Source: a virus
Strand: one strand, 5' to 3'
DNA length: 46,603 nucleotides
Virus record (IMG/VR): IMGVR_UViG_3300006947_000022
Coordinates: 1-46,603 of that record
Positions within the stretch are counted from its first letter, which is position 1. Every line of letters begins with the position of its first letter. Both the position numbers and the translations under genes were made by a program. This document shows, piece after piece, positions 2,061 to 7,301 of the stretch. The notes under the pieces are model-generated. The model saw nothing but the letters and a program-made list of their open reading frames with translations. It did no database searches and was not told the DNA's origin.

Positions 2061-2129
2061 TAAATACAGTATATCAATTTTTAGTGATATATAAATTAGG
2101 AATAACAGTATAAAAGCTGTATATTTACA

Positions 2130-2498
2130 AAGTAATATTCATTTACCATATGAATTACAGTTCCTTCCCTTACGGTGGAACTTAGACATCGGATTAGTAT
2201 ACTCAAATAGAGTTAAGGTTTTCTCCGGTAATTACGAAACAGGCCTTTAGGTATTAGATAGAGTGGTGGGATAAACAAAGCAGGTAAAGCTACCCACGTA
2301 GGTCATGAGAACGGACTCTAAAAGATATAAAGGTTAAATTAGGATAAGAAGTAATTCATATCTCTGCTACAGGGTAACACCTGTCGTAGGGAAAATTACA
2401 TTTTATTGTTAAAAGTAAAGTTTAGATTAGTTGTTTAGATAAATATTGTGTGTGTTTTTTAAGATACCACCCTCGTTCTGAGGTGTGGTATTTTTTTT
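2130..2498 (+). ncRNA. Candidate structured noncoding RNA
   Basis: About 370 nt with no credible ORF, ending in a strong intrinsic terminator. Stems seen by eye, in order: ATTCAT/ATGAAT (2137-2155), GTTCC/GGAAC (2160-2181), ACTC/GAGT (2201-2213), CCTTT/AAAGG (2244-2248 with 2329-2333) enclosing TAGAGT/ACTCTA and GTGGG/CCCAC, then GTAATT/AATTAC (2350-2355 with 2394-2399) enclosing a CTACAGG/CCTGT hairpin. A promoter-like TATATTTA at 2120-2127 (TAnnTTTR form, no clear -33) puts a start near 2132. It lacks conserved landmarks of RNase P RNA, tmRNA or a group I intron core. The exact 5' end is a guess. Confidence 0.5.
2464..2498 (+). terminator. Intrinsic terminator
   Basis: ATACCAC-CCTC, loop GTTCT, GAGG-(T)-GTGGTAT, then eight T residues. 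This is the clearest terminator in the first half of the window; no ORF ends nearby (the last stop is at 2060), so it most likely ends a noncoding transcript. Confidence 0.85.
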
Positions 2499-2522: not shown

Positions 2523-2554
2523 TTTGTGAATAAGGACAAAATACCTTATCTTTA
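2523..2554 (+). promoter_or_regulatory. Flavobacterial-type promoter, leaderless mRNA
   Basis: TTTG (2523-2526), 20 nt, TATCTTTA (2547-2554). The next start codon is at 2559, only 4 nt after the -7 box, so transcription would begin at or next to the ATG. Confidence 0.6.
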
Positions 2555-3807: not shown

Positions 3808-3911
3808 TAAAACCAGAATGGCACTTTATGAATAACACAAACACAAACACAAATATAAGCACAACGTCAGGAGACCTTGACATAACGTACACGTACAATG
3901 ACAAAGATTAA
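3804..3911 (+). CDS. Small Asn/Thr-rich protein (35 aa)
   Basis: The start overlaps the previous stop (ATGA) and the end overlaps groEL by 14 nt, so it may couple translation into groEL. It contains a low-complexity NTNTNTN run (codons AAC ACA repeated). No family recognised; it could act mainly as a coupling leader. Confidence 0.4.
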   Translation: MIKPEWHFMNNTNTNTNISTTSGDLDITYTYNDKD

Positions 3912-5469
3912 ATTCAATAGAAAAGCAACAGAAGGACTTCAAGCGGGAGTTAATAAACTTGCTGAAGCAGTAAAGGTAACGCTAATGCCCAAGGGACGTA
4001 ATGTTATTATCTTTAGAGAGAACGAAGATGCTCACGTAACCAAGGATGGTGTTACTGTAGCACAGGAGATCATTCTAGAAGACAGGTTAGAAGAGATGGG
4101 AGCAAATGTAGTTAAGAGAGTTGCTGAGAGATCAAACGATCTAGCAGGAGACGGAACAACTACAGCTACAGTATTAACACAAGCAATCCTTAACGAGGGA
4201 CTTAAGCTTGTAGCTGCAGGATATGATCCTATAGAACTTAAGAAAGGTATGGACAAAGCATGCGAGTTAATAGTAGAGAAGCTAATGGAGTCTCGTATAG
4301 AGATGTCGTTTGATTCACCTATGGTAAAGCATGTAGCAACTATCTCTGCAAACAATGATGAGAAGATCGGAAGTATTGTTGCTGACGCATTCTTACAAGT
4401 AGGAGATAGTGGAGCTGTCAGTGTTGAAGCTGGTAGTGGATTTGAGACAACTGTACATCAAGTAGACGGACTGCAATTTGACCGTGGTATGATGTCTACT
4501 TATTTCTCTACCTCCCCGGATAAGGTTGAAGCTTCTATGCAGGGTGCAATGATATTCATAGCTGATGGTAAGTTAACAACAACTGAACAAGCTATGGCGA
4601 TACTGGAACCAGCAATAAAGAGAGGTAAGCCGTTATTAGTAATGGCGGAGGACGTATCAGGGAACGCACTGTCAACGCTGTTGATGAATAAAATGAGAGG
4701 TGGACATAATATATGTGCAATAAAGACACCAGGGTTTGGTGATGTAAGAAAAGAAATGGCAAAGGATATTGCCGCTATAGTTGGGGCCGAAGTAGTACCA
4801 AGCGATAGAGTAGACGAAGTGACGGAAGACTTTGTGGAACAATTGTTTGGAAGTGCAAGTGCCGTAAAGGTAGAACAGATGTCTACAATCATTATGGGAG
4901 GGGCAATGGACGAAGAGAAGATTGCAGATAGATTAGCTATAATAGATGAAGCAAGACAGAAGAAAGGGATAACCGACTATGTAGCGAAGCAACTGGACTT
5001 GCGTAAAGCGAAGTTAGGTGGTGGAGTTGTTGTAATCGAAGTAGGAGCAAAGTCAGAAGTGGAAATGAAAGAGAAGAAGGATCGTATGGACGATGCAAAG
5101 GAGGCCGTAAGTGCAGCACTTGAAGAAGGAGTTGTAATTGGTGGAGGAATTGCTTTAATAAATGCAAAAAATTGTTTATCTTTAGCGAAAGGAGATCTAA
5201 CTGATGTGGATCGAGGGATGCAGATCGTTATGAATGCAGTGATGGAGCCGTTTAATGCAATATGTAATAATGCAGGTGTTAGTCCAGATGTAAAGCTAAG
5301 TGAGGTTCTTAGAAGAGAACCTGGTTTTGGATATAACGCAAAGAACGACACTATAGTCCCGATGATTGCAGCAGGTATAATAGATCCAGCCAAAGTAACA
5401 AGGACAGCACTAGAGAGTTCGGTGAGTGCGTCAGGAACACTGTTGACAGTGTCTTGTGCATTAGTATAA
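3898..5469 (+). CDS. groEL: Phage-encoded chaperonin GroEL (Hsp60)
   Basis: A full-length group I chaperonin of 523 aa that refolds proteins in an ATP-driven ring. Landmarks present: KDG near residue 50 (the E. coli Asp52 region), GDGTTTATVL at 84-93 (ATP-binding Asp85, E. coli Asp87), GLQFDRG, TPGFGD, and the EVEMKEKK...MDDAK segment near 398 with the catalytic Asp. The apical helices that bind substrate and GroES keep hydrophobic residues. Oddities: the near-invariant Gly in TLGPKG is Met30 (TLMPKG), and the usual Gly-Gly-Met C-terminal tail is missing; it ends LTVSCALV. Codon use and base composition match its neighbours, so it is a settled phage gene, not a recent host insertion. A GroES-like gene lies 1.2 kb downstream. 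A likely job is folding of capsid or tail proteins. Confidence 0.97.
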   Translation: MTKIKFNRKATEGLQAGVNKLAEAVKVTLMPKGRNVIIFRENEDAHVTKDGVTVAQEIILEDRLEEMGANVVKRVAERSNDLAGDGTTTATVLTQAILNEGLKLVAAGYDPIELKKGMDKACELIVEKLMESRIEMSFDSPMVKHVATISANNDEKIGSIVADAFLQVGDSGAVSVEAGSGFETTVHQVDGLQFDRGMMSTYFSTSPDKVEASMQGAMIFIADGKLTTTEQAMAILEPAIKRGKPLLVMAEDVSGNALSTLLMNKMRGGHNICAIKTPGFGDVRKEMAKDIAAIVGAEVVPSDRVDEVTEDFVEQLFGSASAVKVEQMSTIIMGGAMDEEKIADRLAIIDEARQKKGITDYVAKQLDLRKAKLGGGVVVIEVGAKSEVEMKEKKDRMDDAKEAVSAALEEGVVIGGGIALINAKNCLSLAKGDLTDVDRGMQIVMNAVMEPFNAICNNAGVSPDVKLSEVLRREPGFGYNAKNDTIVPMIAAGIIDPAKVTRTALESSVSASGTLLTVSCALV

Positions 5470-7273: not shown

Positions 7274-7301
7274 AGCCTCACTTGTTTGTGGGGCTTTTTT
7301 T
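7274..7301 (+). terminator. Intrinsic terminator after the early/chaperone genes
   Basis: AGCCTCAC (7274-7281), 6-nt loop, GTGGGGCT (7288-7295) with one wobble, then a run of T to 7301. It separates the 2559-7252 operon from the packaging genes. Confidence 0.8.

Follow-up and report, generated by a model that had tools for sequence, protein, structure and literature searches.

By behaviour, the closest known counterparts of the RNA described here are ROOL and GOLLD. ROOL is a large structured RNA encoded by phages, of unknown function and often found near tRNA islands (PMC12286853), and GOLLD, a phage RNA also located near tRNAs, is raised during lysis and was reported to be dispensable in one prophage (PMC7567579, PMC12286853). 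Phage ICP1 produces an abundant noncoding RNA of ~800 nt from an ORF-less gap adjoining its lysis gene cluster, and the role of this RNA is not known either (PMC7567579). Two further kinds of structured phage RNA invite comparison: the put (HK022) and EAR antitermination RNAs lie ahead of long operons, and the packaging RNA of phi29 is encoded near the genome end. In the human gut, crAss-like phages rank among the most abundant viruses, and for most of their genes the function is not known; the open-access literature searched contains no report of a noncoding RNA from this group.

The element studied here occupies positions 2131-2498 on the plus strand of the window, by which we mean the whole stretch of DNA analysed (IMG/VR record IMGVR_UViG_3300006947_000022, positions 1-46,603; 46,603 bases, ends classed as linear). 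We interpret it as a stand-alone structured RNA gene with a predicted transcript of ~365 nt, and as the first described member of a crAss-like phage RNA family, on the basis of conservation, the lack of a conserved ORF, reciprocal covariance-model homology, covariation and the absence of an Rfam match; no transcript has been measured. Its homologue in phage crAss001 adjoins a tRNA array, which is reminiscent of ROOL; with respect to the tRNA neighbourhood of GOLLD the picture is mixed, since the window itself carries no tRNA or tmRNA detectable by ARAGORN. The RNA matches no ROOL sequence or Rfam covariance model, is smaller and belongs to crAss-like phages of Bacteroidota. GOLLD members, whose covariance model and conserved 3' region likewise gave no match, often exceed 800 nt and differ in architecture. 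Since no Rfam model matches, the RNA cannot be counted as a member of either family. It shares with the ICP1 RNA an origin in an ORF-less gap and an unknown role, but ICP1 lacks tRNAs and differs in host and in RNA size. Like put and EAR it lies ahead of a long operon, a comparison of working mode only, but it is much larger, is terminated in at least two lineages and gave an empty Rfam scan; the phi29 RNA, again without an Rfam match, belongs to another phage group and has another architecture.

The window derives from a member of the Crassvirales close to the Steigviridae. Matches to Crassvirales or phage families were obtained for its major capsid, tail-ring, auxiliary capsid, portal and terminase proteins, its capsid protein is 48-49% identical to those of the Steigviridae members cr106_1, cr112 and crAss001, and its gene order resembles that of crAss001, with small genes, then terminase (8405), portal (10288) and capsid (27365). 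In crAss001 the terminase and structural (capsid) half of the genome forms the late module, which is expressed at 30-60 min and is thought to use the host RNA polymerase (PMC8375218). The RNA sits near the head of the terminase/capsid module in the window, upstream of the module, and because the corresponding half of crAss001 is late, its region is to be regarded as the head of the late module and not as the early region in which the original prediction had placed it.

The gap that contains the RNA (2061-2558) is flanked by genes for proteins of 82 aa (1812-2060) and 107 aa (2559-2882). It holds no credible ORF, and no reading frame is conserved among the four homologous contigs described below. 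A coding sequence was considered and ruled out, as the frames are not conserved and the long reverse frames of L004-L006 do not persist in the window. Searches against Rfam returned no match for the window region at the gathering threshold and nothing credible at E<=10, nor did the homologous stretches of crAss001, cr128 and a Prevotella copy match any model. With nothing credible in Rfam down to this threshold, we regard the RNA as a new family, albeit of an already known kind, the large structured phage RNAs; the literature basis for this placement is open-access only. Housekeeping and intron RNAs (RNase P, tmRNA, 6S, SRP, group I and II introns) were excluded by the lack of any Rfam or ARAGORN match.

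Ahead of the RNA lies a promoter of the Bacteroidota type, TTAG-N20-TATATTTA (-33/-7; 2096-2127, plus strand), inferred from sequence and not mapped, from which the +1 is expected at ~2131-2135. The RNA ends in an intrinsic terminator (2464-2498, plus strand) consisting of a 14-pair stem with one bulge (~2464-2491), a loop and eight U residues, and the stem is kept through compensatory differences in L004 and L006. Past this terminator, the downstream 107-aa gene has a separate promoter, TTTG-N20-TATCTTTA (2523-2554, plus strand), also present in L004 and L005 as TTTG-N20-TATCTTTG, and without a pattern match in L006. Two more hairpin-like inverted repeats are found at 2074-2122, just upstream of the RNA and in one case within the promoter spacer; they show compensatory changes between lineages (ACAG/CUGU, CAAAC/GUUUG, CGAAU/AUUCG) and could represent either an operator or the upstream transcript's 3' end.

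The original prediction had proposed, for 2130-2498, a dedicated RNA of unknown class, ~370 nt without a credible ORF, with a promoter-like box at its start, a strong terminator at its end and no landmarks of RNase P RNA, tmRNA, 6S or a group I intron. These points held: the coordinates were essentially right, and a dedicated RNA remains the supported reading in the absence of transcript data, but the box is of the Bacteroidota type and not sigma-70. An Rfam match to a known cis element, named there as a possible refutation, was not found. Absent from that prediction were the Bacteroidota-type promoter, the Crassvirales identity, the position at the late module and the existence of homologues in gut crAss-like phages. 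Its description of the region as full of nested stems is weak evidence taken alone. The folding energy of 2130-2440 lies within that of shuffled sequences (z -1.37, with 9 of 100 shuffles folding as well); for 2061-2500 the value is z -3.08, and because the reverse strand also reaches z -1.94, nested stems judged by eye carry little weight. Thermodynamics alone is thus not decisive; it is conservation and covariation that lift the RNA above chance.

Gene order around the RNA is common to four IMG/VR contigs (L004, L005, L006, L007), two of which, L006 and L007, are nearly identical in this region. Between the three environmental lineages, the RNA core (2128-2407) is 86-90% identical, as compared with protein identities of 80-83% for GroEL, 66-75% for the 107-aa gene and 55-66% for the 82-aa gene. 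The noncoding stretch evolves more slowly than GroEL, and therefore needs a function. The phage-encoded GroEL itself is located at 3898-5469 of the window (PF00118, E=2.5e-59), and a groEL gene is also present near the equivalent place in phi14:2.

BLASTN of the RNA region against phages gave no match, and more distant homologues were recovered with covariance models, the E-values of which are rough. A model built from environmental copies only (R1) was searched against a set of twelve named crAss-like or Flavobacterium genomes and gave one strong foreign match, in cr128_1, at full length (E=2e-5) and in the intergenic gap upstream of genes leading to the terminase operon. BLASTN with this cr128 stretch and the equivalent gap of crAss001 links cr128, crAss001, cr112, the PhiCrAssBcn phages and cr111, and a pattern derived from the gut copies found L051/L054, L056, L057, L058 and L059 in IMG/VR. 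The reverse search used a model trained on gut copies only (R2; cr128, L056, L057, cr111, crAss001 and L059), which matched the held-out environmental copies at full length and in the right place (L005, 2e-6; L004, 7e-6; window 2187-2339, 1.6e-4; L006, 0.02) and also found L051 at 3e-12. The best other matches in the R2 searches scored 16.6 bits, as opposed to 21-37 bits for the RNA copies. The covariance models hence link environmental and gut copies in both directions. A combined model (R3) further detected four copies held out of its training: L084 and L085 (9e-10), the Prevotella copy L073 (3e-10) and L086 (2e-7). In crAss001 the RNA lies at ~661-980, between gp2 and gp3 in the annotation, where an earlier annotation had left 681-998 as an empty gap.

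All RNA-bearing IMG/VR contigs tested encode a crAss-like TerL, save the two short fragments L084 and L086. With R2 and/or R3, no copy was detected in cr106, cr108, DAC17, cr85, cr126, Dulem virus 41, Fpv1, cr4 or phi14:2, and since 9 of the 13 named crAss-like or Flavobacterium genomes searched are without a detectable copy, the RNA is not essential to the group. In cr106_1 a noncoding stretch of ~390 nt (L050 25111-25500), unmatched by R2 and R3, stands at the head of the late arm with the same promoter ahead, and might be a diverged or replaced RNA. L008 and L009 proved to be unrelated phages (GroEL identity 35-38%) in which no RNA was seen, a profile scan with the 107-aa protein gave no further relatives, and the inspected matches of the pattern GCAGGTAAAGCTACCC beyond known relatives fall in unrelated sequence.

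The RNA can be divided into a 5' hairpin and four domains, all on the plus strand. The 5' hairpin (2132-2158), formed in the environmental lineage by GUAAUAUUCAU and AUGAAUUAC, has one C-G pair replaced by U-A, and it has a competitor in a 7-bp pairing of GAAUUAC with GUAAUUC at 2351-2357. Domain D1 (2159-2182) is a hairpin, AGUUCC/GGAACU, invariant among environmental members; a hairpin of different sequence, paired by hand, takes its position in crAss001, cr128, L059, L056, L051 and cr111, so that in all members examined a D1 hairpin precedes D2. Domain D2 (2188-2229) comprises an outer stem (AUCGGA/UCCGGU), an internal loop (UAGUA/(G/A)AGGU), an inner stem (ACUC/GAGU) and an AAAUA loop, the loop letters being nearly invariant. 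Domain D3 (2242-2336) consists of an outer stem (GGCCUUU..GUAUU / AGAUA..AAAGGUU), an inner stem (UAGAGU/ACUCUA) and a core helix (GGUGG/CUACC), the 3' strand of which comes after GGUAAA(G). D2 and D3 are common to the family members, and the window has the hallmarks of both: for D2 the stem, the UAGUA/GAGGU internal loop, the inner stem and the AAAUA-type loop, and for D3 the outer stem, the inner stem and the core helix preceded by GGUAAAG. The alignment of the window by R2, trained on gut phages only, extends across D3. An additional strand (ACC ... GGUUGAGGGUAAA) sets the gut copies apart from the environmental ones, which are without the gut-type ACC/GGU sub-helix and the GGUUGAG strand.

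For domain D4 (2342-2409), an RNAalifold consensus of the environmental set gives a hairpin, GGAUAAGAAGUAAUU..AAUUACAUUUUAUU with loop GGUAACACC, and the motif GUAGGGA. This segment shows almost no variation and hence no covariation support, leaving the hairpin plausible only. A pseudoknot between the D1 loop (UUCCCU) and AGGGAA at the GUAGGGA motif of D4 is conceivable and finds a parallel in UCCCUU/AAGGGA of crAss001; because the partners in other members are inconsistent, it remains a hypothesis without covariation support.

The pairing in D2 and D3 is backed by covariation among relatives, the absence of which the original prediction had listed as a refutation. Across 17 copies, 15 of them distinct, 94.3% of cells pair; among the distinct sequences, both partners have changed in 27 of 30 base pairs (11 of 11 in D2, helices 1 and 2; 15 of 16 in D3, helices 3-5). 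The covariation score was 0.774, compared with 0.206 +- 0.021 in shuffles, none of 500 reaching it, and with at most 0.149 in slid controls; a set of 13 copies gave 0.667 versus 0.204. G-U cells outnumber A-C cells by 21 to 5, which fixes the plus strand as the strand encoding the RNA. As MAFFT alignments misplaced D2, model-guided alignments were used, and it should be borne in mind that the alignments counted had been adjusted to a structure that was hand-drawn from the gut copies. An RNAalifold fold of the environmental set alone, without gut sequences, yields the same D2 and D3 helices. There is accordingly little doubt that 2131-2498 specifies a functional structured RNA.

Promoters of the Bacteroidota type precede D2 in nearly all members at a near-fixed distance of about 90-110 nt. 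In crAss001, L058, cr128, cr111, L051, L059 and L084/L085 the form is TTTG-N20-TAnnTTTG, ~98-108 nt before D2, the spacer in L084/L085 being 19 nt; in the environmental lineage it is TTAG-N20-TATATTT(A/G) or a close variant at 91-92 nt, and relatives carry TTAG-N20-TATATTTG. A shuffled window is expected to contain the strict pattern ~0.4 times, and the window copy, having TTAG at -33, fits only a relaxed pattern. No match to the promoter pattern was obtained for L056, L057 and the Prevotella copy, though the sequence in L056 and L057 is similar. In L085, a separate lineage, a 12-bp terminator-like stem closes the RNA; this, independently of the terminator and new promoter in the window lineage, implies a discrete product. 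Before the first gene of crAss001, cr128 and L059 no terminator is seen, so in these phages the RNA is physically a leader.

A single solitary copy was found in a chromosome, in a Prevotella MAG (L073 1262-1464; JAFQGS010000075.1), between genes that we take, from reading their translations, to be ribE- and purU/his-like; no crAss terminase was found in this MAG. A Prevotella housekeeping RNA was considered and ruled out, because under strict filters only 1 of the 151 genomes searched from the MAG's family has a match. Two crAss-like contigs carry tyrosine recombinase-like genes close to the RNA (L085 1846-3251, followed by a tRNA-Lys; L051 5013-6233) and may belong to integrating phages. From this we infer that integration could explain the chromosomal copy.

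The conservation of the RNA, its base pairing in D2 and D3, the family and the position near the module head are shown by the sequence analysis; trans action, expression and binding are inferred. The reading we favour, with no more than even confidence, is that of a discrete trans-acting RNA made by the host RNA polymerase, comparable to ROOL and GOLLD but unrelated to them. Host polymerase would start at the promoter at 2096-2127 and, in the window lineage, stop at the terminator (2491-2498), so that a discrete RNA is set free at about the time late expression begins. The folded molecule would then act in trans; the likeliest route is that the invariant internal loop of D2 (UAGUA/GAGGU), together with the AAAUA loop and the D3 segment GGUAAAG, binds a phage or host factor. 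The RNA would in effect resemble a smaller ROOL or GOLLD, produced as the phage gains control of late transcription and translation. Where the terminator is missing, as in crAss001, the RNA would form the 5' part of the late transcript and may be cut free later. A bolder version, which we raise only as a possibility, has the RNA working in trans at the late switch by binding the host transcription or translation machinery or by forming an RNA-only complex.

The main rival, which remains tenable, is a cis-acting leader of the late operon, either a processive antiterminator of the put or EAR kind that modifies or loads RNA polymerase, or an attenuator. In its favour, the RNA keeps its place near the head of the late module even though different genes follow it (in gut phages a tRNA array, in the window GroEL), in crAss001, cr128 and L059 the first gene follows closely without an intervening terminator, and a regulatory leader would fit with expression that begins late from host-type promoters (PMC8375218). 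Against it, a terminator and a fresh promoter intervene between RNA and operon in the window lineage, the RNA of L085 is also closed by a terminator, a solitary copy exists in a Prevotella chromosome, and the RNA has several domains over 300-370 nt; put and EAR elements are smaller.

Other explanations fare less well. An antisense sRNA regulating phage or host mRNAs by base pairing would agree with the size and terminated architecture, which fit a trans-encoded sRNA, but is unlikely, as the letters in the loops persist between phages that differ in hosts and genes and the conserved portions are folded; sRNAs typically change faster and have less structure. The locus might instead serve as DNA, as a replication origin or a site of packaging or end processing, or encode a packaging RNA like the phi29 pRNA, close to where the two genome arms meet. 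This idea draws on the divergent intergenic position in gut phages and on DAC17, a related phage that has long direct terminal repeats close to the corresponding position. It is nevertheless highly improbable: the pairing tolerates G-U and rarely A-C, pointing to RNA, and no copy was found in DAC17 despite its repeats. Similarly, a riboswitch or other metabolite-sensing leader of the 107-aa gene, suggested by the resemblance of a structured RNA before a terminator to an attenuating riboswitch, has very little to recommend it, given that this gene has its own promoter past the terminator, that downstream genes differ among the phages and that no Rfam riboswitch matches. Chance stems in an intergenic gap, compatible with the unremarkable folding energy of 2130-2440, are contradicted by conservation, covariation and the reciprocal model matches and are virtually excluded.

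What is new here is an RNA gene in a former annotation gap that is better conserved than the neighbouring proteins and tied to a position close to the late-module head. It belongs to a family that spans crAss-like viruses of gut and water bacteria and includes the cultured gut phage crAss001, for which a strand-specific RNA-seq series of infection has been published (PMC8375218). Should the RNA act in trans, phages would have a previously unrecognized means of reprogramming Bacteroidota; should it act in cis, the result would be a new antitermination leader, in a phylum in which little is known of such elements. If the bolder trans reading were true, it would be a general hijacking tool of an abundant group of gut viruses, occasionally settling in host chromosomes.

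Several minor observations concern the same genomes. At the left end of the window, a 43-nt repeat occurs in three copies (310-352, 804-846, 1098-1140; 77-88% identical), which, read on the minus strand, resemble repeated promoters or leaders of leftward genes, and a strong terminator-like stem lies at 7274-7295, within the same-strand gene run upstream of the terminase. The L059 record (G008) has in-frame TAG codons in its terminase (7) and capsid (1) frames and a tRNA with anticodon CTA on the same contig, making it likely that TAG is recoded there. A conserved G-rich stretch able to form a stem, CCCCACTGGCTAAGTGATGGGGGAGG, is present in the divergent intergenic region of the gut phages (L044, crAss001, ~130-185; L046, cr128, ~4330-4390). 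Large gene-free gaps adjoin a gene for a TROVE-domain (Ro60-like) protein in crAss001 (95965-96869; L045 5966-6870) and cr106 (L050 33643-34164), and these might be a place to look for a phage Y-type RNA.
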